IMG/VR virus record: IMGVR_UViG_3300003690_000003
Span: 62,001-126,000 of that record
Length of the DNA stretch: 64,000 nt
Reading direction: 5' to 3' (one strand)
DNA from: a virus
A program made the position numbers and the translations under genes. A model generated the notes under the pieces. It searched no databases and was not told the origin of the DNA. It saw nothing but the letters and a program-made list of their open reading frames with translations. Below, piece by piece: positions 33,197-59,400 of the stretch (its first letter is position 1; the number at the start of each line of letters is the position of its first letter).

Positions 33197-33381
33197 TATT
33201 TAACCCCTTTTAGCCTCGCCACTGTGTCAACCACTCCTTGCGTCCCAATATATGCTACAGTGATCATCGTCCAATCTGCAGACGCAAGATCCGCAAATGC
33301 TAACAAGCCGGTTGCTGTCGCCCAGACCAAAAGCTTGCGCGACACGATCTTATTTAATCCTTTGTCTATTAAATGTTTCAT
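33196..33381 (-). CDS. Small membrane protein, holin-like candidate
   Basis: This 61-residue protein starts MKHLIDKGLNKIVSRKLLVW and carries two hydrophobic stretches, LLVWATATGLLAFADLAS and WTMITVAYIGTQGVVDTVA. The SRK...W...AYIG.Q.VVD pattern occurs in small phage membrane proteins that are often called holins. An AGGAAGGAGTG ribosome-binding site precedes the ATG. It is the first of three membrane genes transcribed together, downstream of a 113-nt gap holding TATACT and TATAT boxes. Holin activity is not proved. Confidence 0.55.
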   Translation of the reverse strand: MKHLIDKGLNKIVSRKLLVWATATGLLAFADLASADWTMITVAYIGTQGVVDTVARLKGVK

Positions 33382-33423
33382 CAGACACTCCTTCCTATAT
33401 AATTAGTATAGTGGAGTAAAGAG

Positions 33424-33732
33424 GTGCGCAAACTTAAATTCAAATACCATAGAACAATCAAAAAAGCCGAATTTATGCACGCTGATCTCGCCTATCATGA
33501 AGAGGTTGTCAAAGCCGCCAAAAACGGTTTTCGTCGCCACGCGTGCAGTCGCCTGTTCCGCTGCAGCACGCGTTCAAAAAGCATTAATGCAACGTCTTCA
33601 ACCTCTGAGAAATATGTCCCTGGCGAGACGCGTCTTTCTATAACATATTTCTTCTTAGACTTCGACATGGGCAAATTTGCCTTTTTTCTCAATTATAATT
33701 TGAGTGTCTACACAATCTTTAAGGCTATCTAA
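33424..33732 (+). CDS. Candidate plus-strand small protein (conflicts with minus ORF)
   Basis: A GTG at 33424 is preceded by GGAG at 33413 with 7-nt spacing and by TATAAT at 33398. The first 38 residues look like a real protein (MRKLKFKYHRTIKKAEFMHA, then DLAYHEEVVKAAKNGF), reminiscent of small phage proteins. After that the frame becomes Cys/Arg/Ser-rich and runs antisense into the SbcCD 3' end, so it may be a degraded or frameshifted gene. It would be the only plus-strand gene in the window. Confidence 0.33.
   Translation: MRKLKFKYHRTIKKAEFMHADLAYHEEVVKAAKNGFRRHACSRLFRCSTRSKSINATSSTSEKYVPGETRLSITYFFLDFDMGKFAFFLNYNLSVYTIFKAI
33495..33668 (-). CDS. Candidate 57-residue basic protein after SbcCD gene
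   Basis: An ATG at 33668, overlapping the SbcCD stop by 14 nt, opens a 57-residue frame (MSKSKKKYVIERRVSPGTYF) ending in a basic tail. The overlap and direction suit the minus-strand operon, but the ribosome-binding site is weak and no similarity is recognised. It competes with the plus-strand frame covering the same bases. Confidence 0.27.
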   Translation of the reverse strand: MSKSKKKYVIERRVSPGTYFSEVEDVALMLFERVLQRNRRLHAWRRKPFLAALTTSS

Positions 33733-36700: not shown

Positions 36701-36810
36701 ACTTTTTCTTTTCGTAACGTCTCATACATTTGTTCGAATATCTTCCGATATTCGAAATGATATTTTAAATTTTTGATGTGGATATCTGCGCAATGCGCAA
36801 TCTTATGCAT
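33655..36810 (-). CDS. Fused Mre11/SbcD nuclease and Rad50/SbcC ATPase (T4 gp47-gp46)
   Basis: One continuous 1051-residue protein combines both partners. Residues 1-330 are the nuclease: ADIH (8-11), GGDIAH (43-48), LGNHDGN (78-84), AVYHGS (146-151) and LGDIH (181-185) are the metal-binding motifs of the Mre11 calcineurin-like fold. Residues 345-1051 are the ATPase: Walker A GKNFSGKS (399-406), a long coiled coil, a cysteine pair CGNEYPQC (721-728) in the hook position, the signature GSGAEKTIAAMA and Walker B FILDEPGTALD. In T4 and E. coli these are two genes. The complex resects DNA ends for recombination-dependent replication. The zinc-hook pair is CX6C rather than the usual CXXC. Confidence 0.93.
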   Translation of the reverse strand: MHKIAHCADIHIKNLKYHFEYRKIFEQMYETLRKEKVDFIYIGGDIAHTKTQISPEFVDMCSKFLSTLADIAPTYAILGNHDGNLRNSSRQDAITPIVEALQHPHLHLLKNSGEVEMDLDLTMNVLSIFDEENWVEPSDPTKINIAVYHGSIAGVKTDIGWVMEHGDHDVSIFANHDYAMLGDIHKTNQILDTEGRVRYCGSIVQQNHGETNDKGFLIWEIESKDEFRVKHVKLLNPKPFVTIELTPKGRMPRGTTMPSGARVRLVSNNNLPLNVMKRAVEVAKHRFSPESITFLNRAAGQRGSINVNGNGFFKENLRDISVQERLMKEYLKDYEASDEMMERVNNLNQKYNKMAEATEDVARNINWKLNNFEWDNLFNYGDNNRVDFEKLNGIVGIFGKNFSGKSSIVDGLLYTIFNTTSKNERKNLNIINQHKSACFGKVELQIGDKVYTINRRSEKYIKKLKGEVTDEAKTDLDFDYFDPVMSENHSLNETTRMKTDAAIRKHFGTIEDFLLTSMSSQLDSLSFIKEGSTRRKEILAKFLDLEVFEKKYKLAKEDSADLKGVLRRIGDRNFEEDISAAKEEIKKTNSQLLEQEESCERVQEEISTKDFQLDEVNDLIDSIPYEVVDIIDAEQRKAELKSNLSRAQEANKERGEKIQELKADIGNLDEFLNRFDIDELDQKQDLIDIKQDEMESIVSEARLLQRDYHTKSTKLKLLDEVPCGNEYPQCKFIHDAHKAKKEAPDLKTKILDSIKEAKELKKFLEDLNPAKTALKRKKYDELTTSHSINESNLKDLQLSYAREKNKIVSYESELATLAIKIEEYKDNRENIENFEHLANQRQGVLDVMESLIGEHKACQNMVLEYYKLKGSLEQKLTNLMEQQKELKDIQQEYAAYDLYMRCMHSNGIAYDIIKKQLPVINDEIAKVLANIVSFEAFFEDDGRRLNIFIKHPKHEPRPLEMGSGAEKTIAAMAIRLALLSVSNLPKGDIFILDEPGTALDADNMEGFIRILDLIKSFFKTVILISHLDSLKDCVDTQIIIEKKGKFAHVEV

Positions 36811-37763: not shown

Positions 37764-38269
37764 AAAGTATACCCAGCACGTGCAATAATCACACTATCGG
37801 CTCTATCATAATAGCCGGGCTTCGGATTGCCATGCTTAGTATATTCTACCTTAAACTCGGGTGCTATGTCAAGCAGAAACTTTAAAACTTCTTCTTTAGC
37901 CTTTGTTCCTCTGGGAATTTTAATACCGTTAAGTTTTCTCGCTTGGCTGGCACCTATGTATTGAGGGTCCATGTGAAAAACATCTCTAATCGCTAATGAC
38001 GCCATTCCATTAAATCGCTGCAGGAGAGCCATTGTTTTGCCACTTGAACCGCCGCTATTAAAAAATACAAAGGGTTCCTCAATCCATATCTCTTGCGCTG
38101 CTACTTGTAGAAATCTTACATCGGCCAAAAACTCTCTTAAAGTCTCTATCTTTTCAAAAAGTCCTTTGTTTTTTCGAAGATCACAGTGTTCACAAAAAAT
38201 TATTTCTCCGTGTTTACTAATACACGACACACCTATAATGCTTGTACTAATATCAAAACCTAAAAACAT
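37736..38269 (-). CDS. RuvC-like Holliday junction resolvase
   Basis: This 177-residue protein has the RNase H-like layout of RuvC: FLGFDISTSIIGVS at the N-terminus (first Asp, residue 5), an acidic strand IWIEEPFVFF (Glu near residue 69) and a C-terminal YYDRADSVIIARAGY with the DxAD pair. RuvC-type enzymes cut four-way DNA junctions, a need before packaging; T4 itself uses the unrelated gp49. It overlaps the preceding structural gene by one base (TAATG) and the primase start by 28 nt, so it is the first gene of the DNA-metabolism island. Confidence 0.83.
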   Translation of the reverse strand: MFLGFDISTSIIGVSCISKHGEIIFCEHCDLRKNKGLFEKIETLREFLADVRFLQVAAQEIWIEEPFVFFNSGGSSGKTMALLQRFNGMASLAIRDVFHMDPQYIGASQARKLNGIKIPRGTKAKEEVLKFLLDIAPEFKVEYTKHGNPKPGYYDRADSVIIARAGYTLWKNKNFSS

Positions 38270-39651
38270 TACATATCTAGCTTAAGCTTGAATGTCATAT
38301 CCCGGGCTTCGGTTTTCTTAACGGGGGTAGCGAGCTTAACAACTCCGATTATGTTCTGCTGTACATCATATAGGACTATTTGACTAATGTACGTTGTTTT
38401 CACAAAACTTCCTGTAGGATCATTATAATCTGAATACGTAGTATTTTTAATCCCTAATGCCTCATTTTCATAAAATCCGATTGGGCCGGCCTCAAAAACA
38501 CCTGCGCCACTTTCAGAAACAAAAGTTGGATTATTTGAATGATTAAGCTCATTTTTTCTAGCATGTGCAAACATGGTTATAGTGGGGGTAACTGTCGTTC
38601 CTTTATAACTCAAATTCCAGCTTGTCTCATCGTGATCTTGAGTTTGAGTGGCCGGGTCGATCGCGCCGTCGATGCCGGCAGCAAAATACTTCCACTGGGG
38701 GGAGTTAATGTCTCCGTCATACGTCTCCTGAAATACCGGGTCTACATCCCAGGAACCGGTTAATACTATAAATCCTTCATTATATAATATAACGCCGGCT
38801 ACAGAACCAGAACCTTCACCTTGAGCATAAGCTGTGCCGGAAACTTGAATAAGATTTCCATTTCTATTCTTATCTTGTAGTTCTGCTACCAAAGTACCAC
38901 TAATATAGGTTTTTAGACTCACAGAGCCTTTTTTAATCGAGGTACCATAAAAAATCGAAGGAATAGAAATAAGTGCAACATCCGTCGCTCCGAGTTCCGC
39001 CCCACTCGCTAACAAGTTTCTTAGAGAAGAAGATACAGCATATTGTGGACTTAGCTTTTTATAATAGTTTAACGTATTCTTTAACGCATATAAATGCGAA
39101 ACCGATCCAGAGCTTGATACTTCCAAAGGGCCGCTGCCATCGGGTCCAGATGCTGTTATAACCGAGGACTCAAGGCGCGACGCGGAGGCTAGCCAATACT
39201 CTCTAGAAATCGAAGCCGTCAGGGGATAAGTATGAGTCATCACATCCCCCAGATTATTATCAGTGTTGAAGCTAGTTGTGCTTACAGTTTTAAATGAAGT
39301 ACGCGTGCCATCTTTAACCACAAACGGCTGAATGATAGGATTGAGACCTTTATAAGTATCTCTCGGGTCTGTTCCGTTTGCGACTGCCGCTTCCAAGGCT
39401 GGGAGCTTTACTCCCAAAGCATTTGCCAAGGCGGGAGGTTGCATAGCGCTTCCAGAACGGTCCACGTTCTCTTCAAAAAGAGAAATATAGCCAGGGGCGC
39501 AACTAAGAACACTGCCCGTGAACGAACCACTCATAGGAATGTTTTTATTATAGTATGCTATTCCCTGATATATATCAAACTCTATCAGAGGGTAAGATCT
39601 GATTGAATTAATAAAAAGATCATTACTTTGAAACTTAAAGATGTATGACAT
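38269..39651 (-). CDS. Virion structural protein, paralogue of next gene
   Basis: This 460-residue protein is beta-rich. It shares with the 366-residue neighbour a core of GGLAYGLLYSGS/GVILYNEG-type segments, the GFIVLTGSWD / GICVLTASLF strand, a (N/S)(E/N)(F/L)N(Y/H)S.NPT(Y/F) element and the closing KL..P(V/L)KKT...(F/L)(K/R)(L/V)(K/R)LD. The two therefore arose by duplication. Extra length lies in the first 150 residues. It is probably a tail or baseplate accessory protein in the large structural block; T4 counterpart not recognised. Confidence 0.65.
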   Translation of the reverse strand: MSYIFKFQSNDLFINSIRSYPLIEFDIYQGIAYYNKNIPMSGSFTGSVLSCAPGYISLFEENVDRSGSAMQPPALANALGVKLPALEAAVANGTDPRDTYKGLNPIIQPFVVKDGTRTSFKTVSTTSFNTDNNLGDVMTHTYPLTASISREYWLASASRLESSVITASGPDGSGPLEVSSSGSVSHLYALKNTLNYYKKLSPQYAVSSSLRNLLASGAELGATDVALISIPSIFYGTSIKKGSVSLKTYISGTLVAELQDKNRNGNLIQVSGTAYAQGEGSGSVAGVILYNEGFIVLTGSWDVDPVFQETYDGDINSPQWKYFAAGIDGAIDPATQTQDHDETSWNLSYKGTTVTPTITMFAHARKNELNHSNNPTFVSESGAGVFEAGPIGFYENEALGIKNTTYSDYNDPTGSFVKTTYISQIVLYDVQQNIIGVVKLATPVKKTEARDMTFKLKLDM

Positions 39652-39681: not shown

Positions 39682-40782
39682 TTAATAATCCAATCGAACC
39701 CTGAGTGTGAACTCATCATCGGGAGTCTTTTTAAGCGGCTCGGATAACTTTGCAGTTGCTAGAAGTTCGTTATCTGCGGAATAAAGACCTATTGTGGTAA
39801 TATATGAAACAGGACTATCATTGCTATTATTTTTAACTACAAGTTTGCTTGCGTTAAGATAGGTTGGATTAGAGGAATAGTTAAACTCATTGTTGTTTGC
39901 ACGACAGAAATAAATCGTCGAGTTTAGTTCGGTTGTATTGTTGAAAGAAACGTTCACGAACCTATTTCGAAAAGTATCACAAGAGGCGCTAATGTATGAG
40001 CCGGTAAATTGCTGTTCCACCGTGGAGCCGGAAAGATTGCCCGCGGCATGCTCCAGGGCCCGGGTGGTAAAGACGCAATGAGCGGCCGCGGGTTGCTGGA
40101 CGTTGGCGTCGAATAGGGATGCCGTTAAAACGCATATACCAGCTTGATAAAAAACAAGGCCGGCCGGTATTCCGGTGGCGCTGGGCGAAGCTTCGTAGTA
40201 GGAGCCACTATAAAGAAGCCCATATTCGCCGGCCGGAGAATTAATCTTATAAGCATTAAGCCCTCCCACATCTTGAATAAGGCAGCTGCCCGAAGGGTTG
40301 ATCGCGAGACCCCCTGTTAATACCGTAAGTGAAAAACTGCCCTTTTTAATCTCGTCTTTACTAAGAAGTCGAGCAAAGTTAATAAAGATGCATTCCTTTA
40401 CTTTAGTACCCCCCGACAAATCACCGTCTTGGTCGAACTGGCGAATATTGCCGGTTACATCATAGCCAGCTAGCACTTGAGCCATTTCATTATAAATATT
40501 AATCTTCTTAGCCTGCTGAGGGTTGAGAGTTGAGGTAGGGCTTGAGGCCGAATATCCAGAGTTGGGCGAAAAACCAATCGTTAAATCAAAGACATGATTT
40601 GCCGAGGAACTTAAATAGGGATAATCATATACTGATTCAAACATCCCATGAGTGTAGTTTTTAATGTTATTATCGCCATAGGTTCCAGAAACAATCGTTC
40701 CTGTTAATGGAATCGCCTCGTGAAGCATCGTTCTTGTCGAAACTACATCATTGTTTAAAAGTGTTTTAAAAGTACTAGCCAT
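39682..40782 (-). CDS. Virion structural protein, paralogue of preceding neighbour
   Basis: This 366-residue protein has the paralogue core described for the adjacent gene: GVLLYSGSYYE-type strand (GEYGLLYSGSYYEAS), AGICVLTASLFD, NNEFNYSSNPTYLNAS and a final LKKTPDDEFTLRVRLDY. No membrane or enzymatic motif is seen. Such pairs of related beta proteins in the tail block may occupy equivalent sites in the baseplate or fibre network. It lies 9 nt after the frameshifted extension of the preceding gene, showing that the extension region is not a true intergenic gap. Confidence 0.65.
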   Translation of the reverse strand: MASTFKTLLNNDVVSTRTMLHEAIPLTGTIVSGTYGDNNIKNYTHGMFESVYDYPYLSSSANHVFDLTIGFSPNSGYSASSPTSTLNPQQAKKINIYNEMAQVLAGYDVTGNIRQFDQDGDLSGGTKVKECIFINFARLLSKDEIKKGSFSLTVLTGGLAINPSGSCLIQDVGGLNAYKINSPAGEYGLLYSGSYYEASPSATGIPAGLVFYQAGICVLTASLFDANVQQPAAAHCVFTTRALEHAAGNLSGSTVEQQFTGSYISASCDTFRNRFVNVSFNNTTELNSTIYFCRANNNEFNYSSNPTYLNASKLVVKNNSNDSPVSYITTIGLYSADNELLATAKLSEPLKKTPDDEFTLRVRLDY

Positions 40783-40791
40783 TATATTATC

Positions 40792-41755
40792 CTATATCTG
40801 CTTTACATATCTAATAGGAACTTCGACCCTATAACCCGTTGTAATCCCAGTTACGGCAATAAACGTATCGATAAACTTATAGGTTTCGCCGGCGGTTGTG
40901 CCGTCCATCGAGCCAATGACGTCGGCGCCAGAGGACCCTAGTACACTAAAAAGATAATCATTTGTTTTTTGTTTTTACTGAAGTAGAAGAGCCGATTCGA
41001 AAGCCAATCCGAGTGCCGCGGGGGCCGTCGAGGGGCGTCGTACTGCCGGCATTCAACGAGCTCACAAAACTAGAATCGCCCTGTGTTAAATAATATGTTG
41101 CTATATTATCATCATCAATAAAACTAACATCTGCCACTGTGGTGTTAACCGCTGACACCAAATAACCAAGTCTATTGTCCATTTCTACCAAATATTGAGT
41201 CTCTATTAAGTCGGGGTCAAGATTTAACTCCTGAGATATATCAGTAGTATTGAGGCCCTGATCTAGCTTAATCGAGTTCGGGCCAACGTCGCTGGCCGCA
41301 CGTGAGCCATTTAAAACTCCATCTAAATCCGCCGGAATATTTACAAAGTTCCCTGCGAGGCCATTAATCGTTGAAACGGTGTTATCATCTACCACAATAA
41401 TATACGTGTCTTCGCCAGCACCTGCGAGAGGAAACCGCGCCGAACCCTGAAAATAGTTAGGTATTATCACTGGTAAATATAACAGATCATCTCTGGAGAT
41501 ACTCAAAAGTTTTGATTTTACCGAGGAGGTGTTGTTAGTAAATGCTTCTAAAACTGGAGTTTGCAAAATCTGTAAGTCGTAATAGGCCGACCCACTGGGA
41601 TTATTTTTATCGTAAAGATTGTAGTTTATTTCATCATCAGCTAAAGCAAATTTGGTGATTTTAAAGGTGCCATCCCCTTTGGCCAATCGCATGCGGCCGG
41701 TATCAGTTAAAACGGCATCTAAAATAATATCGCCAGAGTTGTCTAAAAATGCCAT
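40792..41755 (-). CDS. Virion structural protein with apparent frameshift
   Basis: The first frame (ATG at 41755) encodes 265 residues and stops at TGA 40958-40960. It begins MAFLDNSGDIILDAVLTDTG, a common start of structural proteins in large marine phages. Just before the stop is AAAAACAAAAAACAAATGA. The +1 frame then runs for 56 residues to TAG at 40792-40794 (NDYLFSVLGSSGADVIGSMD at the start, YRVEVPIRYVKQI at the end), which fits the expected C-terminus. The gene is therefore about 320 residues if read through. Programmed +1 shift, indel mutation and homopolymer error are all possible. Confidence 0.7.
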
Positions 41756-41805: not shown

Positions 41806-44800
41806 TTAGGATTGTTCCTCGGGATTAATGATTGGAACCTCTTCTAGCCGCACATTTAAATCGAGCTTTTTACCAGTATTCTTGGATATTATTCTAACCT
41901 TAAATACCTTTTTATTGGTTGAAGCGTGATATTCTCCTAGGCCGTCGAGCCGCGGCGACCAAACACCATCTTCACTGCCTATATGGGTAGAACTTCCCAA
42001 TAAACCCTGTAATCCTGTCAAAGCTGCCGGATTCAACGCTGCAGTTTCAAATGGAGAGCCAGCATCCGCTGAGATAAGCTTTTGCGCAAAGGCTGCCCCG
42101 ATGTGAAGATACTTACGAAAAGGCTTTTTAACACCCTTAATAACTACACTATCATCAATATGATTAGAAATATAAAATACATTTACTATTGGGAACATTC
42201 TTCCGTTATCATCTACTATTTCCAAATGATAAATAGGAGAAGGTATTGATAAGCCTCCGTGATAATCTATGCACCTAAAAGTATAATAATATTTGGTATT
42301 GGGCTCTATAACATCATCGAAACTCATACTTGTCGCCCGGCGGCCACTTGGCAAAACGCCCGGCATTGTCGCATGTAGATGTGGTGCAAAATCTGCATAA
42401 GACATTGGTTTCTCTGTCATTCTATAAATCTCAAATGTTATATCTGTGTCATCAGAACCAAATATAATAGGAGGACCCGTAACCTTGCCGGTGTCAACGT
42501 TGACTACGGCTGGTCGCTGCTGGTACTCTCTTTGCACATCATAGCGAGGCCTGTCCTCCATTTCGTTTATCATAAACTTTTCAGGAGTAAATACATACTT
42601 TACGTTTTGAGTTTGCATTAAAAATCGTACTCTATTATTAACACCCTTAAATGGGACAGTCTCTATTTCGGGAAATACCGGAGGCAAATCTCTCACTTGG
42701 ACTGTATCAAACTCGTAATAAGGAGTTTCTATTATTTTGGCTGATATAAACTGATGTGCATAAAACGACTTTGCATAAATATTTCCAAAGTGAGAAACCT
42801 CCGTATAGTTGTAGCCAGAGGGCCACACCGCGGGGGATCCCGGCAGCTCTATGTTTTCATAACAATATTGATTCCCAATCACAAAGTTATATGCATATAT
42901 GATATATTTATACCTCACGCCATAATGAACTTGTGTATCAAAATATTTAATCTTATCCAACGCCATTACGTTTGGAAAATAGAAAGTTTGAAGAGGGTTA
43001 TTAATATCGTAAAGTGCCTTTCCGGTATTAGGATCCACTCCTGTAACTTTATGTTTGCAAACTTTAAAAGCCAAAGTTTCACTATAAGCTAGTTTTCCAT
43101 TTATCATTTCTAAATAAGATCGAGACTTTTTGCGTATAATGTTCTCAAAAGCCTGTAATATCGACTGAAAAGCTGCCGGGGTGGCCACCGTCTTATAATC
43201 AGCGCCGTCGTATACTATCTTAGGGCTCGACCTGTCCGAATCATAGCTTCCTACTTCGCTAGCGGTACCCGTACTCTGGCGCATGCCTTTTGGGCCCACC
43301 AAAATTCCACGGCCGCGCGCGATGCCCCTATATTTTATTTGACCAACCAGTGCACATGGTGTGGTGGCAGCCGTTGTCGGCGCCTCATTATTTGGTAATA
43401 AACTATCCTCGGTGCTGAGCGCCGGGAATCGGGGCACTTTGCGAGATAAGTTAGCATAATCAAGCATTCTTCCAACATCTAGACATCTAAGATTATACAG
43501 ACCTCTATCCCTATGGGGTCGCAGGCCCGATTCGCTCTCGGGAACTCCTCCCCACGTCATAAAGGGCGCTAGCGCGCCACCGCCATCTACCCAATCAAAC
43601 CCATAATAGGTATGTGTAGGAACGGTTCCCAACTGCATTCCTGGTGTGTCTGGGTCCTGATCCTCTGGAATAAACTCTGTAATTTGATTACTAAAATCTA
43701 TTGATTCATTGTAAGTATTGAAACCTTCTCCTCCGGTAGCCCCGGCATCCCAGTTATTCAGATTCATCAATACAAGATTGTTGGTAATAAAATCTGTTGC
43801 GCCCGGAATGCCTTCCAGACTCTCAATCAATTCTGTATTGACATCAAGGCCTGTCATAATCGTATCAAACTCTATTGCTACCCCGTATGGAAAGTCTTCA
43901 CGATCTTGATATCTAACAAAATCAGATTCCATCATATCTTTTGAAAACCCTATATGAGTATTGAGATATCTTAGCCACTTGGTTCCCGACGGGGCGCCGT
44001 GGGCTTTCAGCTCAGCAGAATACTTTTGAAGATAGCTTCTTTTAGGACTATCGTATCCTAGCTGAGCGATTTGATCGCGGCTGCTGGGCATCCCAAACTT
44101 ATTATATAGAGTACTCTGACGTTTTAAAACCCTTCGTACACCATCTCCGATGCGGTCGCCACCCCCAAAACGCTTTGCGGCGGCGGCGGATTTATAATCT
44201 ATGTAGTTATAAATCATATATGAGTTAGGCAAGAGCCTTTCATCTATATTTGAAGCTGATGTGGCAATCTCATAGTGTTTAGAAAAATAATTATATTTTG
44301 GCTCAATCTTAGCTACCTTAACTGTAGTGGGGGCTCCTGTGGTATGTATAGGGTGATTAGCGCCATAAGGAGTATAAAACTTATAAGCATGATCTTTAAA
44401 AAAACCATTATAATTGCCAACATATTGATGTAAAAAGCCCGGATATTCCGTCAGATCGTCATTGTCGATCCACGGGCTGGGGCTGAGTGTTGGGGGGGCC
44501 GGTCGTCGATGTAAACCCCAGAAGAGGTCCCATTTGGCGCCTTGGAGCGGCGCTCTCGTAAGGGACCATGGTTCTGTAATGCTATTAGTATCATCATCAG
44601 CAAAATTAGGCGGCACCTCCTCTGAAGCCAACACCCAGACCTCGTTGAGAGAATTGACAACAAGATACTTTTTTCGTGTAAGATTATTCATTTCCCGCGT
44701 ACCATTTGGGGGTAGTCCGCCGGCGCCAGTACCACCACCTGTGCCAGTCGTGTGATGGTAGGCGAGAGGAATCGACATGGACGCGTCGCCGAGGGAGGTG

Positions 44801-45381
44801 GGATATCCAATGTATATCCACAACGGCAGGAGGTTAGCCCATGGTTTCACTAGCAAATCAGTTATTCCACCCACAATGTCATTTTCTAAGACAGCAGCTA
44901 GAGCGCCTGCCATGTCGCCAATTCCAACCTCTCCTACTTCTTCTATGGGCCATTCTAAATCAGGTATCGTGGAGTCCGGTGTCAAAGGGTGAATGGTCGT
45001 CGCCAGCGCCGGTGTACGTCCTATTGAAAAAGCTATTTTATTTGTATTAATGTTATTAGGGGTATTTAAAATTTCAAGATCATCTGGTTCAAGACTGCCG
45101 TGATATTGGGTCTGATTCAAATAACCAAAGTCTGCATAGGTATTTGGACCGTCGCCGTCTTTAAAAGACCAATATCGCCCCATCGCGCCACGAAAAAAAT
45201 CTTGTTCTGTATAGTCCGGGCCTCGCGCGCGATCATTAGCACTCATATATGTCGTTCTTAGGCATGCATGATTTAAAGCAAACTTAGGGGATGTAATATC
45301 ATCCCACCTAATTGTACTTGTCCTTTCAAGTTTTGACACCCCGACCAAGCTTCTATCAACTAAAAGGTTTCGTTTACCCAT
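41806..45381 (-). CDS. Large virion structural protein with Fn3-like segment
   Basis: This 1191-residue protein begins MGKRNLLVDRSLVGVSKLER and has no membrane segment. Residues about 975-1070 carry DDTDITFEIYRMTEKPMSYA and NTKYYYTFRCIDYHGGLSIP followed by SPIYHLEIVDDNG, a fibronectin type III-like pattern. Much of the rest is Tyr/Asn/Pro-rich and beta-prone. It is translated after the 1319-residue protein and before the frameshifted gene. A baseplate or tail fibre-network role is inferred from size and neighbours. Confidence 0.65.
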   Translation of the reverse strand: MGKRNLLVDRSLVGVSKLERTSTIRWDDITSPKFALNHACLRTTYMSANDRARGPDYTEQDFFRGAMGRYWSFKDGDGPNTYADFGYLNQTQYHGSLEPDDLEILNTPNNINTNKIAFSIGRTPALATTIHPLTPDSTIPDLEWPIEEVGEVGIGDMAGALAAVLENDIVGGITDLLVKPWANLLPLWIYIGYPTSLGDASMSIPLAYHHTTGTGGGTGAGGLPPNGTREMNNLTRKKYLVVNSLNEVWVLASEEVPPNFADDDTNSITEPWSLTRAPLQGAKWDLFWGLHRRPAPPTLSPSPWIDNDDLTEYPGFLHQYVGNYNGFFKDHAYKFYTPYGANHPIHTTGAPTTVKVAKIEPKYNYFSKHYEIATSASNIDERLLPNSYMIYNYIDYKSAAAAKRFGGGDRIGDGVRRVLKRQSTLYNKFGMPSSRDQIAQLGYDSPKRSYLQKYSAELKAHGAPSGTKWLRYLNTHIGFSKDMMESDFVRYQDREDFPYGVAIEFDTIMTGLDVNTELIESLEGIPGATDFITNNLVLMNLNNWDAGATGGEGFNTYNESIDFSNQITEFIPEDQDPDTPGMQLGTVPTHTYYGFDWVDGGGALAPFMTWGGVPESESGLRPHRDRGLYNLRCLDVGRMLDYANLSRKVPRFPALSTEDSLLPNNEAPTTAATTPCALVGQIKYRGIARGRGILVGPKGMRQSTGTASEVGSYDSDRSSPKIVYDGADYKTVATPAAFQSILQAFENIIRKKSRSYLEMINGKLAYSETLAFKVCKHKVTGVDPNTGKALYDINNPLQTFYFPNVMALDKIKYFDTQVHYGVRYKYIIYAYNFVIGNQYCYENIELPGSPAVWPSGYNYTEVSHFGNIYAKSFYAHQFISAKIIETPYYEFDTVQVRDLPPVFPEIETVPFKGVNNRVRFLMQTQNVKYVFTPEKFMINEMEDRPRYDVQREYQQRPAVVNVDTGKVTGPPIIFGSDDTDITFEIYRMTEKPMSYADFAPHLHATMPGVLPSGRRATSMSFDDVIEPNTKYYYTFRCIDYHGGLSIPSPIYHLEIVDDNGRMFPIVNVFYISNHIDDSVVIKGVKKPFRKYLHIGAAFAQKLISADAGSPFETAALNPAALTGLQGLLGSSTHIGSEDGVWSPRLDGLGEYHASTNKKVFKVRIISKNTGKKLDLNVRLEEVPIINPEEQS

Positions 45382-45432
45382 TTGATTTTCCTATAGTATA
45401 TAGATTTTTCTTGATATTTTTAAACATATTGA

Positions 45433-48400
45433 TTAGTAATCTTGTCCATTATCGTTCTGCTCAAAAACGCGTGTAGGAATCGTAATCCCTGTTTGGTTTT
45501 CATATATAGTAATAACATTTCGTCTTCGAGGCATCGTGTGCCAACCAAACCATAGTTGCTTAAGAGTTCTAACCCCGCGGTCTCGATCACTATTAGCACT
45601 TCGTGGCGGGGGCCACGCTATAGGTCGATGTGAACCAGCTTGCCAACGTCGTTTGCCGTTGGGCAAGAGTTCCTTATACCACCTATAAAAAGCTATATAA
45701 ACCTGCACTCGTTCAGGCCCAGTAAGTGATGGCGGTGGGCCCGGTGTGGTCGGTGCTTGTTGTTGCGCGGCCGCATAACCAGTAGTAGTAGTGGTCATGG
45801 TAGCCGCGGCAGTTGTAGTGGCAGCCGCGGCAGCTGCTACACGGGTGGCTTCGGCTGCGGCAGCAGCGGCTGCTGCGGCGGCTGCTTGTTGGGCCTGGGC
45901 TGCGGCTGCCGCGGTGGCGCGAGCTGCTGCAGCCTGCTGTGCAGCATATGCAACAGCAGCCGTGGGGTTGGTTCCAACTCTTGTGTCTGTGTCGTATGAG
46001 TTAGCAAACTCGATAGAATCAGAAAATGAATCAATATTTGCAGCAATATTGGATGGGACCCCATATGTTATTGCTACGGCCTGAGTGGGACTTGGATTGG
46101 GTAACTCCAGAACTGCGCCTTCGCCTCCAATCACAAATAGCTCATTATAAATAGGCATCTTTAAGCCATCAAAATTAGCCAAATGTGTTTTGTGTCTTTT
46201 AAGGCGACACATTAAAGATCTATTACCGGTATCTGCGGCTTGTACAACTGATAGAGTAAGCGGATACCAAACCGGTGCCGTAACAATCGATCCCACCCCA
46301 CCGAGCATATAAGCATGCATATATTCTACTATATATACAAATCCATATCGAGCTGCTATCAATGCGGTATTACCCGGATCAATATTTCCGTCAGATACTT
46401 CATTAATAAATGCCATTTCAGAAGGCGCCGGAGGCGGTAAAGGAGTTGTGGCTGGATTAGCAAACGCGGGAGAACTGAGGGCTGGTGAACTAGCCAAACT
46501 AGCCGCCATATTTCCTTGCTCAACCTGGGCCTGAACTTGAGGGAGGCCAGCGCCTCCTACAAAAAAGTTCCCTGCGCTCAGCGTTGTTAGGGCGGGGACT
46601 ATTGGATTGGGCTTTCCATTAAAAAAGTCCCCTTGAGTCAAATAGTTAGAAATCTGAGAAACATTAGCGACGAGTTGAGTTGCCAAATTTGAGGTGCTAC
46701 CACCAGCACCAGGCTGTAAAAGATTTATTGCTGCACTACCACTCAAAGCTTCGGCAGCAGCTTCGCGTTCAGGTTCGGTAATAAACTCTGAGTTTAATGA
46801 AAAAAGGTTGCTGACATCAAGGCCTTTCTCAGCATTAGCGCTCAGGTCCTCCGTGGTTGCAGGGGTGTTAAAAACGTTTTTTATAGGATTTTGTGGAGTA
46901 TTTTGAAATACCGTTGCGACACAGTTATTAAAATGCATTATTCCATTTTGATTTTGAATTAGCCTTGTATTCGTATGTTGCAACGCCGGATTAGTTGCTT
47001 TAAGTCCCGGCGTACTAGCAAAAGTAATAGGAGAGTTTTTATTTATATTGGCCGAAAGAATCTCGTAAAACGCTTCCTCTATGGCATTTTTAGTTGTATT
47101 ATTATCTGAGAAAATGTCCAAAGGCTTCCGACCCGGTATTCTTAAAAAGTTAGGAGTTAAAAATATTGCGCCCTGTTGGGTGACCCCATCATTTTTTCCT
47201 GTCTCGTTGGCGACTAACCGGCCCCATTGATCAAAAGTAAGTCGCTTAATGGTCCCGCCGACCGCGGCGTCGGTAGTCGAACCTACACTTAAAAGTCTCT
47301 TTGTGTTCAAAAAATCCAATCCATAAGGACGCAAAGCATCAGTGTCTATCGATTCCAAAAAGAACTGTCTAATGGTAAATATTTTTTTGCCCCCGGTCGT
47401 GGGTGCGGCGGGCGCCTGGGTCATGCTAGTTGTAGATCCTTTAGTTACTCCTATAGCACTCCTCAACGAAGAAGAAAAATCCCTGAGAAGCCTTATTAAA
47501 AATTCTATACCAGATGGTCCCGTAATCAAGGGGTTCACCGCAATAAATAAATTCATCTGTTCTTGAAGCGTTTGAGGACCAAAAAAGAAACCCATGGCAG
47601 TCAAATATTTGTTAACCGCTATAGACCACGGAGCTCCCACTACGATGGTAATAACTCCGCCTCCGAACTGTCGAGCTCGAATGTTTGCATCACGCGCAAG
47701 AGTTTGGCTGACTAACTCTTGACCCTCAGTTCCTGTAATGACGCCCATGCCGCCAATGGCTGGCTGGCCTCCAAAATCTATAATATTCTGAAGGGCGGCG
47801 CTGTACTGTTGAATAGCACCCTGGGCTACGGCTGCTGTTGTAGTTAAACTTTGTTCAATGGGCCCCATGTCAGAAACTGCACCATAGTCTACATCTCGCG
47901 GGGCACCGGTGGCGGGGTCAATATATTCAAGTGCCTCGCCGCTTTTAATTTTTTCTATAAACAAGGGTGTATAGCGATTAGTCGTAATATTATAGTTACC
48001 AGAAAGTAAAGAGGTGCTCAGAAATCTTTCTAGCTGAACGATTAATAAATCGATGCCCGGGTCAGCAGGATCTGGCTTGGTTAAAATCTGTAAAATTTTA
48101 TCTCTTGACTTATCTTCTATGGTTATCTCAACCCCATATTCATATAATCCAGTTGTAATATCTTTAATACTATTATCGCGGATCTGATATTGCATGACTC
48201 CAGTTGAGGTGTTATAATCCATTCGTTGTGGTTCGCCCACTACTTCTACTCTTTTATCAAACAAACGCAAGGGCGAATCCCCACCGGTTAATTTATTAAA
48301 TACATTAGGCTTATTAACTCTGCGCCTTATAACCCTTATTGATTCCATATTACAACTTGTTAACTTATCATTAACATTATTATATAAAGCTTCATATTTG

Positions 48401-50438: not shown

Positions 50439-53400
50439 TTACCCTAGAAGGTTCAAGGCTCCTTGTGCTGCGTCGGCGGCAGCCTGATCAGCCAGGTCCT
50501 GCGCCGCTTCGACATCCTCAACCGATTCGCTGGAGGCATACTGTATTCCCATATCCATCTTAACTAGCTCCACAAGAGAGAAATAATCGTATGGCCAGTT
50601 GTAAGTATAAGGAGAATCAATGCTATTTGGAACTGTTGATAAATCATCAGTAAGCCCCGTTGCTTTATATTTGTTATAGTTACTCTTCGCTCTTCGTTTT
50701 ACCTTAAATACCATCCAACGCATGTGCTCGCTAATCTGTCTCTGGTCACTATCGAAAAAGTCTTCTGCCAATAAGGAATGTTGGATTGTTGCCTCTCTAG
50801 CTTGTAGTGATTCTCCGCTAGTCTCAGGAGGTAAGTTTTGCCATATATCGGCTAAATCTTGTTGGGAAAACTTCTTTGTAAACTCAAAAACAAACATCAC
50901 AAACGGATCGATTGTTTCTCGGCCCGTTTCGGTTGTTACAAAATCAAATTTTGGAGGGAACACATAGTCTTTCAAAGCTTTACAAATCTTTAGGACGTCA
51001 GGTTTCACTTGGACTTGAGTTTGCTGACCGGCAAGAATACGAATGGCGCCGTTTCTTTGGTGCTTGCTGAATCTATAGAACTTTCTGCGGCCGTCGAGGG
51101 CAATAGTAAATGGTACCGCTACGACCGCTTCGGATACCACTTTTGCATCGGTTATGGAGCCAATCCGCTTTACGACCGGAGAAAAACCAACTACATCTAG
51201 CAAAGATTGAACATTGTAATTTGCGTCGCCATTTGGTGAACTCTCGATGTGGCCTGGATCGGTTAAAGAGATAAAAATCCCCTCTCTCCCTTGACAGATG
51301 GCCCCCTTCTGATGCCACATCCCCTTGGTCGCTAAAAGGTCGCCGCTGTGAGCGGCCGCAGTCGGAGTGAGCGGCGTCGATGCTGACACGGCAGCAAAAT
51401 TCAACACTGGCGTCTCAAACTTAGTTTGTATAAGCCATCGTTTTGTCGCGGTGGTCGTGTTGGCTATAATAGCGGTTACCTCTCTTGTCAAATCCACACT
51501 TGCACTAATCTGCATCGCCGCAAAGCGTTGTTTGGCGTCAGGGTCGTTCAGAAAAATCGTATTTGTGCTCGCGTCAGGGCTTAAATATTCCCCAGACCTC
51601 TGGTAAGTTATCTCGCTATTAGAAAAAATATCAGCCAGCATAGGCTTCCCATCATATTGCGGTTTAAAAAGAATCGTTGCAACAGCCTCACCATCATAAT
51701 AGGGAGGCGTTACGTGAACCCACGAAGGAATGTTGGCCGTTCCTTCGAAGCTGGCAGACATCGGCCGTCCAAACCCGCTAGCACGATTATACATAGTAAA
51801 AATAGTCGTATCCGCAACTTGTTTAGAAAGTTGAGTTTGCGCTGGGCTGGCGGCGCCAATGATAGATTGTTGAGTGCGGTTCAAGCTCACTTTCATGCCA
51901 TAAACAGAACCAGATTTAACCTCTCTAAATTGATCTTCGCGGGAAGATTTAAATGATTTTAAACCAGTCTGGAAAAAGTCTACCGTCTCACAGACAAAAT
52001 TATCTATAGCCAGTTCATAATTTTTAAGGCCATCTCCTGGCCATCTAACAGCATTCATACAGTTTGCCAACGTCGGATTGGTGGGATTACTAGCTAGGTG
52101 ACCATAACTAGAAGAAATACTTCCCGAGCCCACTCCCCGATCAAATATATATCCTGCATTAAAGTTATCGTAGTTAGCAGCAGGGTTCGGGTCGTCGGCG
52201 GCGGGGACCTGAATGGGGGCGAGGATCCTAGTGCTCATATGCTGCACTGGATGTAGAAGCGCTTCAAAAGGAAGCTTGTGCATATAATAATAATATCCAG
52301 TTTCATCGACCAGGGTCGAGTAAGACGCCGAGGGGTTTAATGGAAGAAGACCTTTCCATCCATAGTATTCCCCAAAATCATCTGAACCGGCGCGAGGACA
52401 GTTCGCCCCGCCGATCTGTTTCGTCTGAGACCGAGCTGAGTATTGAACATCGCGGCCGACGGTATGGCCGAGATAATCTCTGATATAGCCATCCCAAATG
52501 CTCCGAAGGATATAGTTGGAAACGCCAATTCCTGATTTAATCGTATTATACAAGATTCCCGGGCCGGCTAAGGGCTCAACAAAGGCACGAAATGCTGCTT
52601 TCGTCTCCATAAAATCAGACGTTATCCGGCCTCCACCCCTCTTGGGGAGACGACTACCCCCGGCCCAATCTGGACTAGTAGCCTCGTCGTCATTACCGCA
52701 GGCAGCCGCAGTACACTTCATAAACGGTCCATATGAAGATGAAAGTCCCTTGTAAGGCAAGAACTTAACTAACCCGGAGCATCGCAAAGCTAGCTTGTCT
52801 TTCTTCATAATATCGCCATTGACAAGAGATTTGTTATCGTAAGTCTCATCGACTACACTAAAAAATCTCATAAAATCAGAGTTGGAATAAACCTTGAAAA
52901 AATTATTCTCGGAGCTATCAGCTATAGAGGAACCAGTTAAGTCTAAAAAGCTATTATTGGGGGCCCAAAAGTCTTCAGCCGCCGTATTCAGATAATAATC
53001 CATCTGTTCACTAATTCTAAACTCGGGAACTATAGAATAATCTTTACCAATAAGTCTCAAATTCTCACAATATTGATCATAAGTTAAATAAGGCTTTTTG
53101 CCGGCTTGTTCGGCAACCTGGTATTCGGCATCGCCTGGAAAGTTTGCTCTGGGGTTATTGGTATTAAAAGATGTGGGGGCTCCACCGTCACCGGCTGCGC
53201 CGGAGATACCAATCATACATCTTTGAGTGTACATACAACTGGCGGTAATATTTCCTTCACCCCACTGATCAAATCCAGAAAAACAATTTTGAAGAAGCCC
53301 AGAGCCACTAAGGGGATTCGAAGATAAGGTATCTTGAAAGTTTGTATCAGCTGTAGTGCCCGGGCTAGGATAGCCATGACCATCGAGAGGCCAAATACTG

Positions 53401-56400
53401 GCATTTAAGGCAGCGCCCGTAGGCGACATAGGAAGATCCACTTGACTACCGGCATATCCGCGTAGAGTGCGATTATTATTCCATATATTACTAATAGAAT
53501 AGTTTACTCTCCGACGATTTCTATTAAGACCGGCATTCTTAGCTGCGGGATAAACTGTTTGTTTGTAGTTTACAAGTACTTTGTCTATATTTTCGAAAGG
53601 AGAGTTCTCAGTATTTCCAGCGGTATCTTTAAGAAGAAGCTCATTTAGACGATTGAAATACAAATCTCCTCTCTTAGTGTCGAGTTTGAGATTATATCTA
53701 TTTGTGAGTTCAATGTTTGCAAAGTAATCTACTTTATTAGCAAATGAATGATTATAAATCAATGACTGATCGATAAACGTTACATTTCTATCATTATCGA
53801 CCACTCTATTGGTGGAAACAAGAGTGTGAGTCATTACTTTGTGCTGGCTCCCTATAGGAGGTTCTATATAACTAACAATCTCGTTGCCTTTAAGACCGCG
53901 GACGCCAGTGGCCCGGTTTACTATAGTCGGGAGTGTTCTTACAGTTAGGCGGTTGTTCTTTCTTTGTTCTCGCACTAATGGGTGTGAGTGTGGGCCCGCT
54001 TGGATTTGTCGGAATGTAGGCCAGCCATAAGGGCCGTTGCGGTGAAGCATGAGAGCGTTGAACATCTGCGCAGTGCCGGCGCCTTGGCCATAGGTGCCAG
54101 CAGCGGCTTCTCCAGTACCATCGTAAATAAACCCCTCAATATATCCAAAATCTTCAGCATTCCTATTGGCATATTGCGTCTCGATCGCATCGGACTGGGA
54201 CGGGTAAAATAGTTTTACGCGCTGCTGTCCATTAAGTGTAGATAAAATATCCGTGTTTAAAGGAAATCCTAAAGTATTTTGGGACGCAGTAAGCGGATCC
54301 TTAAGAACAGTATTCAGACCCGCAAAATTTGGTCCATAAAACGGATATCCGCCGGCAGCTACGGTCTTTCGTGTAGCGCCCCATCGGTACAGGGGGAACC
54401 ACAGCGGATATGCCCCACCGGCCGGGCCCCTGACCGTGCAGCCAAAATCACTTGCCGAAACAAACTGATCTTCTAGTTTGTAATGGAAAGGTCCATCATA
54501 TCTTGAACCGTCGATAGAAAGATCTGAAGCCACTGCTCCATTAACAGTACCATTGTGACCACCAATCTGATCGATTATCATCGTAGCCGAATCACCCCTT
54601 CCATCGCCCATGCGATACCAAGAGAGCAGACTGGCGGCCGCGCTGTGTTGTTTAAAATTCTTTGCTGTACCATTGTTATATGCCTCTTCGGCCTGGTTTG
54701 CTGATAGTTCAGTGTTCCAAATAGCCACTTCATCGATGTTGCCATCAAAGTAGCCGCCAGGGGCATCAAGTTCGACTCCTATGGTGCCGTTCTCGGTGGC
54801 GATGGCCGCGGGGTTATCCAGCTGGAAGCCGGCACTTGTAGTACGATCGACGCCGTCGAGATACAGTTTCATACCGCCGAGAGAGACCCCTGCAGGATCG
54901 CCCCCCTCAAAGGTTGCCACGACATGGTGCCACTGATTATCATTTAAGTACGCAGTACCCGTCTTAATACGCCCGTTGCTGTCGCTACCATCAATTTGGA
55001 ATCTAATCCCGTCGCTAGAGTTGGTATAAAGAGCACGACCATAAATACCAAAATGTATTAACTGCTGATAGCTGCTCCAGTCCGCGGAATTAAACCACAA
55101 AGAAATCGAAAATGGCTTAGCGCTGGTGCCGCTTCCGCCAATAAGACTGTTCCAGGTAACGGCTGTTCCAATATCAATATAATCATTTGTATCATCAAAA
55201 AACATCGATGAACTGTTCTGAAGATATGCATAGCTTGTTAGACCATCATATCCATAAACCTTCGCGGTAGGAAGGAGTGAACCTGTAATCCATGCATATT
55301 GTCTATCGCTCTGCGGGATTTGATGAGTTACGTAAGCATTGTCATAGGTGTTGGTTTGATAGGTCGGCCATGAAACTCCTCCGGCGGCGAGGGCTTCGAA
55401 GCGCTTAGGAGCATGGGCGTGCTGAAGCACCAAGTCAGTTGCTAGCGAAGCGCTTGCGGCACTACTGCCAATAAGGCCCATTTGATTATCAACGGAAGCG
55501 TTTGTATCGCCGGCGTAGGAGTTGAAACGATACCACGCTTGCAGACTCGTTGGAAGCGTCTCCTTGATATTAACAACAACTCCATTATTATATAAACTCT
55601 TCACTTCGGCTGCAGCCAGGACCTTTGACCAAACCGCAAAATTGCTAATATAAGCGTTGGTATTCGCGGTTCCGCTATCTCTACTCCCAATAGTTAGGCC
55701 TTTTATAATCTGGCCAGAAGTACTCGAATTAGCTACGGTATCATTATCATTGACCCCATTAAGATAAATTGTGGCAGTTTCATCGCCGCCGTTGTCGCTC
55801 CCCCCGTTATAGGTTATAACCACATGATACCACCGATTGGTGGTAAGTGCTGTAGCGTTCAGGACGGTGACGCCTGAACTGTTGTTGCCAAAAAACTTTA
55901 AGAGACCGGTCGAATAAATATTCATATATCTCTGTACACCAAATGCCCAAACCTTGCTGCTGCTCCCGGGGAGAGTCGGAAGCCGCAGCCACAGAGAAAC
56001 ACTAAATGGCAATGCAGCGTTGCCCAAGCCACCTACAAGAGATGTCCAATCACTGGCGATGCCGGCCTCTACATAGCTTGTAGAACCATTGAAATAGCCA
56101 GCCCCCACAGGCGCCTCTTTGATCACACGCTTCGGATTTCGGTTCATCTTATTCCATGAGGGGAGGTTGGAATAAGCAACCTGAGTCAAACCATACTTGC
56201 GGATCCCCGAAGCCGAGCTGCTGGCCGCAACGCCGACTTCCACGCCAAAGCGACCAGAATGTAAAGTAGACCGCTGGTTGAGTCCGCGCGCATAATCAAT
56301 CTGATCTACAACATGGATTGTACCGGATATGCTAGGATCGCCCGGAACCGAGCCGGTGCGTCCATAGTCTATAACTCCACGGTTGCGCCAAGGAAGTGCG

Positions 56401-59400
56401 TTATATACTGACTTCTCTTCGTGAGCGGGATCCATATAGCCGCGAGATGAGACATCCCAGCCACCAGGAGCATTAAACCTGTTAACTATAATAGACTGGT
56501 TAGAGTTTGCGCCGGTACGCGTAGGAAGGGTATATTCTAAGTTGCCCCCCACATTTTGTGTAAGATTTCCAAAGGAAGGAGAGGTCTTTTGTATAGCACT
56601 AGCTGGGAGGCTCTCAGGGGTTCCATTATGAGCGCCCACCTCATCGATCAGCGAGTTTACACCAAGACTGTAGCTCGTTGAACCATCGGTGGCGTCATTG
56701 GCATTATCTCCGAGTTTCCACCAAGATATAAGATTTCCACTGGCGGCGGCAACAGTCTGTTTCAAATTAAGGCGCGCACCGTTATTATATATTTCGGTAA
56801 CATGATCTTGAGAAAGTTCTTTTCTCCAAACGGCAGCATCACATATATGACCGAGCCATTCATCCTGAACACCGGTGCCGCGGGCGCCTATAAAACATTC
56901 CATGCCGCTGATTTCAAGCGGAGCGCTAACAGTGTCTACCAGGTTGGTATCCAGTGTGCCATTAACATATAATTTTTGTGCACCGGTGGTGTCGCCCTCA
57001 AATGTGGCCACAATATGCATCCACACTCCCGTTGTAATCGTACTTGTATTTACTTTACCCGTATCGACGCTGCCAGCAATAGTAAACTCAAAGCGGCCCG
57101 AGTCGCCAGTATCCCAATAAAGACGTCTATCTGAATTTGAAAAATCAAAAATGCGGTCATTGTCACTAATACTAGGATCTACTTTTACCCACGCTGAAAG
57201 GCTGAATGCTTTCGCGCTGCCCCCGGCGCCGCCAATCTCCGCTGCCCAAACCGTGTCCGCCCCAATCAAAACCCTATCGTCGGTGGTCTCACCCCCAAAA
57301 TATACCGAATGAACTTCAGGAGTCTGCAGCGGGAATCGACCTCTCGTGGCCAAAGTCTCAGGATACAACGCAAAGTCAAACGACTGATCTTGGAAGAACG
57401 GATCATTAATGCTTCTTCCAGCGGTTTGTATAATCTGGTAGTTCTTCTGATAGTTTCCTATCCTGCTATGCATTATTGTCCCGGACATTCTCTGGTTCAG
57501 AGAACCGGTTGTCATCAAGATATTCTTGATATTAACTGGACGTTTGGTGCCAACATTCCTCTTAAGATTGGCTTTTGGTCGATTAAATAAGTATGGAGGG
57601 CTTACTGCCGGCGAATCTTCTTGTGGGTATTGAGGGCCTACAATACCGAGGGCGCCCACCTCGGCGTCGGTGGCGGGAGGAAAGATCCGGCCACCGGTCC
57701 AAAGTCCTAATAGAAGCTTAAATCCTTCTGCGCGGTCGTCGGCGTTATCTAAACCACCACCGAGGGGATCGCCCTCCCGATGTGGCCTTGAACTAGAAAC
57801 ATTAAGCTCAATATGACGGTGTTCGCGGCCTCCTACAAACTTCTCAGTAAAAGGTCCCTGCATTGGAACTTCATAGTCGGGCCCATAAACATCGGTATGT
57901 AGATTGGTTAACTGTACGCTTCCTGTAAATCGATTAACTATTTGGAGATTGTAACCGGTGTTAACTGATGAACTATATAAACTAAACGGCGCTATTAATT
58001 GACCGTCATTGGTTGTAAAATATGGAGAATTGGCGGGCTCTTTGTTGATAAATCCCATACCAAAGCCGAGTCTTCTCTTAACTCCCGGGTTTAAATTATC
58101 GGAAATATTTTGCCATTTCTCAACATCGTCTCCAAAAGCTAGCATTATATTAGCAGGAATATTGGTACCAGGAACTCTTGGGCCGGCTGGATATGTTGCT
58201 GCATAAACCACGTCACGCTGTTTTTTGCGAGTATAGTTTACGCCACTACGAATAGTCCGCAGCTTCTTAAAACTATTCTCTATAGTAAATCTATAAGGGG
58301 TCGATTTTTTTCTATTACGAACAGACTCTGTTGTCTTAAGAACCATAGTCCGGCTATGATTGACGCTTGCAACTGAAGAACTAACAGGATTTAATGTCGT
58401 TCCCTCCATACCGGCATATTTTGGATACCTCTCTGCCATCTGCAGCCAATAAGTTGCATTAACACTTTGTGAGAGTACTGTGGGGGGAGGCCCTGTGATA
58501 GGGGTGAGTATCGGATGGTGAGCGTACTTCCAGCCCGGGCTTAATGGAAGCACCGTTAAGAGAGGCCCGATGGGATCCGAGGGCTTCATTTCTAAAGTGG
58601 GGAACTTGTGTTGATATTTATCGCGCGCTAGTATGTGATTTTCCACCATTATTCGAATGCCATCTGCAAAATCTGCAGATGCCGGTACCAACTGTTCAAT
58701 CATCTTACCCAAAGAAGTATCAAACCATTTATAAAACTCAATATATTTATCTAAATCGGGTGTATTCTCAACGCGTTCAAAAAATAGCTCTCTCAGCTTT
58801 CCTAACCGTTTATATTGAGGACGATATTTATTAACTGGCTCTCCAATAAGATTGTTAAAATCGACAATGGAACCAAATATATTAAGCATTTCCTCTGAAA
58901 TGGTTTGATACATGCTCTTTTCGAATGCAAAAAAGAAAGTAATTGGACGTGATTCCCGTGTAAACTCAAGATCGTCTTGCGTGGTCAATACTTTAATCAT
59001 GTCTTGAGCATAAAGATTCTCGGGCAAATTCTGTTTTGCCGAAACTAAGTAATCTACGTCTACCACTTTAACAGAACTAACCGGGAATCCGTAACCTCGG
59101 CCGGTATGTTGAGCATTTAATATATTCCCTAATGCCCCGTAACGAGTAGTTTGAAGTGCTGTTGAACCAGAAGAAAAGTCTGCCACCACAAACTCTCCAG
59201 AAGCATCTGAGCCGGTTACCTGTTCAAAATCCCAGTTTAGTGCCAAAGTTTCTATTTGTGGAACTTCGAAATTGTTTTTACCATCCTGGAACACATAGGC
59301 ACTTCTGTAGGGATGCAGCGCGCCATAGTTTTTAACATCTCTTGCGTGGGCTTTAATCGCATCATTCTCTAAATAATCCAGCCAATATCTGCATGCTGCC

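Follow-up and report, generated by a model that had tools for sequence, protein, structure and literature searches.

The 64,000-nt stretch of viral DNA analyzed here (the window) is part of a virus record of 170,861 bases. It encodes a T4-type portal, a terminase, the major capsid protein gp23, and a contractile sheath and thus belongs to a large T4-like myovirus. On the minus strand, a 265-aa open reading frame (ORF) stops at a TGA that follows an A-rich run, and an out-of-frame coding segment continues from there to the next gene (Table 1). Judged by homology, the frame-0 ORF appears to be the N-terminal five-sixths of a conserved protein from the T4-like myovirus tail/baseplate module. The +1 frame is open down to the TAG at 40792-40794 (minus strand) and is closed on its other side by the TAA at 40975-40977, which leaves only the A-rich run as the site of the frame change. 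The 366-aa gene that follows is preceded by a Shine-Dalgarno-like AGGA motif, located where the extension ends, and its ATG is separated from the TAG by 9 nt; excluding the extension would leave a gap of 175 nt. An earlier note on this DNA had described this layout, with a 265-residue frame that ends at the TGA after the A-rich run, a stop-free +1 frame of 56 residues reaching to 40792, and gaps of 9 or 175 nt before the next gene, and all of its coordinates hold.

Table 1. Features at the site of the frame change, in window positions
Feature	Position	Strand	Basis
Preceding gene, 1191 aa; its relatives precede the homologue in other phages	41806..45381	-	tblastn
Frame-0 ORF, 265 aa, TGA stop included	40958..41755	-	ORF list; profile match
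+1-frame TAA just upstream of the A-rich run	40975..40977	-	sequence read directly
A-rich 16-nt run AAAAACAAAAAACAAA, period 7, site of the frame change	40961..40976	-	Tandem Repeats Finder
Frame-0 stop TGA, abutting the repeat run	40958..40960	-	sequence read directly
Out-of-frame C-terminal part, 56 residues (from N) plus TAG	40792..40962	-	profile, tblastn, coding score
Next gene, 366 aa, ATG at 40780-40782	39682..40782	-	ORF list

Elsewhere in the window, the tail sheath protein is 997 aa long (8458-11451, minus strand); its C-terminal ~280 residues alone match Pfam sheath domains, and it is conserved over its full length in a relative (L058; 1001 aa, 44% identity). A single gene of 4098 aa occupies positions 50439-62735 (minus strand), and the best-matching ORF in a relative (L076) has 3143 aa. 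An alanine-rich low-complexity stretch, AAAAAAAAAAAEATRVAAAAAA, lies at 45430-46100 (minus strand), near the C terminus of a 1319-aa gene. No long ORF is obvious on the minus strand at positions 1-1340 and 33197-33654, although the genome is very compact otherwise, and ARAGORN found no tRNA in the window.

Several lines of comparison indicate that the extension is genuinely part of the protein. A scan of IMG/VR yielded 53 loci, 26 of which (L001-L026) are long-form relatives; L001-L025 matched most of the query, and L026 matched residues 1-203 only. In each of these 26 relatives, the frame that starts MAFLDNSGD... runs uninterrupted to an extension-like C terminus, for a total of 312 to 357 aa. 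This C terminus resembles ...YIDSxIRVTGxTTGYxxDIPVRFVK and is read in the same frame as the N terminus. A profile of the 26 homologues scores 342 bits against frame 0 of the window (profile positions 1-271) and 46.7 bits against the extension (271-320), i.e., the two pieces, in two frames, cover contiguous profile positions. Likewise, proteins of three relatives each match both frames at this gene, contiguously, in tblastn searches. With codon statistics trained on the other genes of the window, the extension frame scores +29.7 bits and the other two frames score -10 and -15. The openness of the +1 frame taken alone would have been weak evidence; 57 open codons are expected by chance in about 3% of cases in the +1 frame of the window's coding genes. 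The extension also retains the conserved residues ID, TG-TTGYR, and P-R-VK in addition to its coding bias. The earlier proposal that the extension belongs to the protein, with the break in the A-rich tract, is thus supported by homologue frames, profile, and coding score, and the alignment with related phages that had been suggested as a check points the same way, as every long form carries the extension in frame and none ends at the TGA. A separate downstream mini-gene was rejected; the segment shows homology to the C terminus, and no separate start lies close to the junction.

The nature of the break is suggested by its length. Measured from the G of a GPRG-type motif to the LF codons past the junction, the flanking motifs of the window are 73 nt apart, against 66 nt (22 codons) in 24 of 25 homologues; the sole exception, L014, has 26 codons (78 nt) and is still in frame. 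The window exceeds the homologues by 7 nt, a number not divisible by 3, and the junction carries the repeat AAAAACA-AAAAACA followed by AA, with a period of 7, 2.3 copies, 100% match, and 0 indels in Tandem Repeats Finder. Perfect period-7 tandems are about as frequent in the 64-kb window as expected (3 found, 3.4 by chance), and from these counts we estimate at about 0.001 the chance that one would fall within ~10 nt of the junction, short period-7 matches being slightly easier by chance in A-rich DNA. A second perfect period-7 tandem (TGCGCAA x2.1; 36787-36801, minus strand) lies at the 5' end of a 1051-aa SbcC/gp46-like gene, which is intact. If the duplication had not caused the break, one would have to accept two independent coincidences, a repeat at the single frame break and a repeat unit equal to the length excess. 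We give a probability of roughly 85% to a 7-nt tandem duplication, be it real or artefactual, as opposed to recoding or a one-base change. The relatives behind this reading show about 43 to 59% identity, and the window lineage could have departed from the 22-codon spacing, L014 being one such case. Viral, genome, and phage collections, which may omit such records, yielded no near-identical genome carrying a single copy of the unit. A variable-gap DNA pattern across the site retrieved no copy of the same locus among viral contigs, and a scan of genome contigs found no relative.

A gain or loss of one A in the homopolymer, which the earlier note had offered as one cause, was rejected, since it would give a protein with two more residues than the relatives have at this place and would not account for the repeat; the excess is 7 nt and coincides with a perfect 7-nt tandem repeat. 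The other cause that it had named, a real indel giving the same picture, was a sound alternative.

The duplication might nonetheless exist in the contig alone, as an artefact of sequencing, amplification, or assembly, with the phage gene intact. This possibility is a sub-case of the 7-nt duplication, so that the confidences given to the two overlap, and we regard it as less likely than not. It would fit a C terminus without decay in a gene that is intact in every relative, and the record is a metagenomic virus contig whose DNA could also have undergone slippage in amplification. A 7-nt repeat is, however, atypical for homopolymer error, and 78 homopolymers of at least 6 nt lie within intact ORFs, giving no sign of a systematic indel problem. 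Collapse or expansion of the repeat in assembly is not expected, as its 16 nt are shorter than commonly used k-mers or reads. Nor were further frame breaks found in the window or the rest of the record. The proteins of three relatives covered 47.4 kb of the window and about 52 kb of the remainder in tblastn searches, and the three split matches in adjacent frames all fell at this gene. We favor a real allele over an artefact, by about 2:1, given that this is the only frameshift detected and that the homopolymers elsewhere are intact.

The truncated protein probably belongs to the tail/baseplate module. PHROGs yielded no family for the window protein or its neighbors, and sequence searches of PHROGs, Pfam, and PDB returned nothing for the homologue family. 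immuto35A_163 of Flavobacterium phage vB_FspM_immuto_3-5A and WWT39512.1 of Microcystis phage Mel-JY01 share with the window protein a homologous N-terminal region of ~100 residues and a location with a very long gene upstream and two further genes after it, within a baseplate/tail fibre module; in the former phage, a baseplate wedge gene precedes the homologue and tail fibre/spike genes follow it. They differ from it in being intact hypothetical proteins of the short form (about 211 to 219 aa). Short-form genes (L027-L053, L055, and L056) encode about 211 to 222 aa in those read, and only the N-terminal ~100 residues align between the long and short families in profile-profile comparison. By eye only, the terminal GRDSGARLTIPVT motif of the short form resembles TGATTGYRVDIPVRF of the long form. 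The 366-aa gene (39682-40782) and a 460-aa gene (38269-39651), both on the minus strand, also look paralogue-like by eye, with similar starts and ends, and together with the frameshifted gene they make up a three-gene cassette conserved in relatives.

A structure model of an intact homologue (L006) has a mean pLDDT of 70.9, with residues beyond about 90 mostly above 80, and is confident only for residues of about 91 to 312. Fold searches with this model yielded low-TM, beta-sandwich-like matches only in PDB and, in BFVD, one unnamed sequence relative plus one weak match. Beta strands at 270-274, 282-295, and 301-311 form the end of the model. Truncation as in the window, at about residue 262 in L006 numbering, would remove all three predicted strands.

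On another reading, this phage normally makes the 265-aa form, and the C-terminal strand region is dispensable in its lineage. The record is otherwise intact and the C terminus is a modeled structure without assigned function, as this idea would have it, but the conserved residues and coding bias of the extension indicate constraint until recently, and even the short distant relatives (about 211 to 222 aa) end, by eye, in a similar motif. We consider dispensability improbable.

Phase variation by slipped-strand mispairing, in which the heptamer would alternate between one and two copies and switch the full-length protein reversibly off and on, has a mechanistic appeal, in that each gain or loss of the perfect repeat unit changes the frame. 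The repeat comprises only 2.3 copies, far below the copy numbers of the usual contingency loci, and no relative has repeats at the site; we hold such variation to be very improbable. The chances are similarly slight that a genuine switch, operated by slipped-strand gain or loss of heptamer copies or by a low rate of +1 slippage along the A-rich run, yields two forms of a tail/baseplate protein, with and without the C-terminal strands. Literature searches turned up no phage tail gene that would serve as a direct precedent for such a heptamer switch.

Finally, programmed or tolerated +1 ribosomal frameshifting, or transcriptional slippage on the A tract, would produce both the 265-aa protein and one of approximately 322 aa. 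The direction of the shift, its place just ahead of a UGA, and an A-rich run that offers AAA_A re-pairing agree with this proposal, as does the position of the gene in a tail/baseplate module, since phage structural genes with +1 frameshifting exist (PMC5009743). Homologues nevertheless speak against it. A programmed site should be conserved, and none of the 26 long homologues has a frame break or an A tract at the site, all of them reading through in frame; hence, the site does not represent a conserved recoding signal. What lies out of frame is the main protein's own conserved end rather than an optional added domain, and a single-base shift predicts two extra residues relative to the homologues, whose length the 7-nt unit fits exactly. 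The 30 nt 5' of the UGA contain no Shine-Dalgarno-like or purine-rich stimulator, and the 91 nt of RNA downstream are no more stable than shuffled sequences (z = 0.29 for pseudoknot-free folds). We therefore judge this explanation to be most improbable, although some accidental +1 slippage on the A-rich run is conceivable.

The resemblance to the RF2 (prfB) shift at a slow UGA, to which the earlier note had appealed, goes no further than the +1 direction and an in-frame UGA at the break. The RF2 site reads CUU_UGA_C and has an upstream Shine-Dalgarno-like stimulator (PMC5009743). The window has neither the CUU_U slip codon nor the stimulator, nor is the site conserved in homologues. In its context, AAA_UGA_U, the base after the UGA is U and not C, and the P-site AAA would need to re-pair to AAU, i.e., RF2-type re-pairing is absent. 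In Listeria phage PSA, the capsid and tail genes undergo a +1 shift on a proline codon beside a stop codon or a pseudoknot (PMC5009743). The two cases share a gene of the phage structural module and a C-terminal extension in the +1 frame, but in the window slippage would occur at A-rich codons, where no stable RNA element is present, and all relatives encode the extension in frame as their ordinary C terminus. The closest parallel is the spontaneous short tandem-duplication frameshift, with which the window shares a perfect direct repeat at the break, an excess of one unit, a unit that is not a multiple of three, and an A-rich, low-complexity context. It differs in that the origin is deduced here from relatives and not from a single-copy allele of the same phage.

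The tandem duplication thus favored would have arisen in a continuous gene of about 320 codons with a single AAAAACA in an A-rich stretch. Duplication of these 7 bp to AAAAACA-AAAAACA would most simply have occurred through strand slippage in DNA replication, the origin that we infer. Since 7 equals 1 modulo 3, the downstream 57 codons would be thrown into the +1 frame, with the TGA immediately after the repeat, and translation would yield a 265-aa protein minus the conserved C-terminal strands. The C-terminal reading frame is still stop-free and coding-like, which suggests that the allele is recent. The modeled loss of strands makes loss or impairment of function of the truncated protein likely.

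On the best reading, a single phage genome carries a frameshift by short tandem duplication, or the artefactual equivalent of one; biologically, the event is ordinary. The gene should be annotated as frame disrupted, with an intact family behind it, and not as a recoding site. Testing motif spacing for an excess of exactly one tandem unit offers a simple means of telling short duplications apart from homopolymer errors and from recoding in metagenomic phage genomes.
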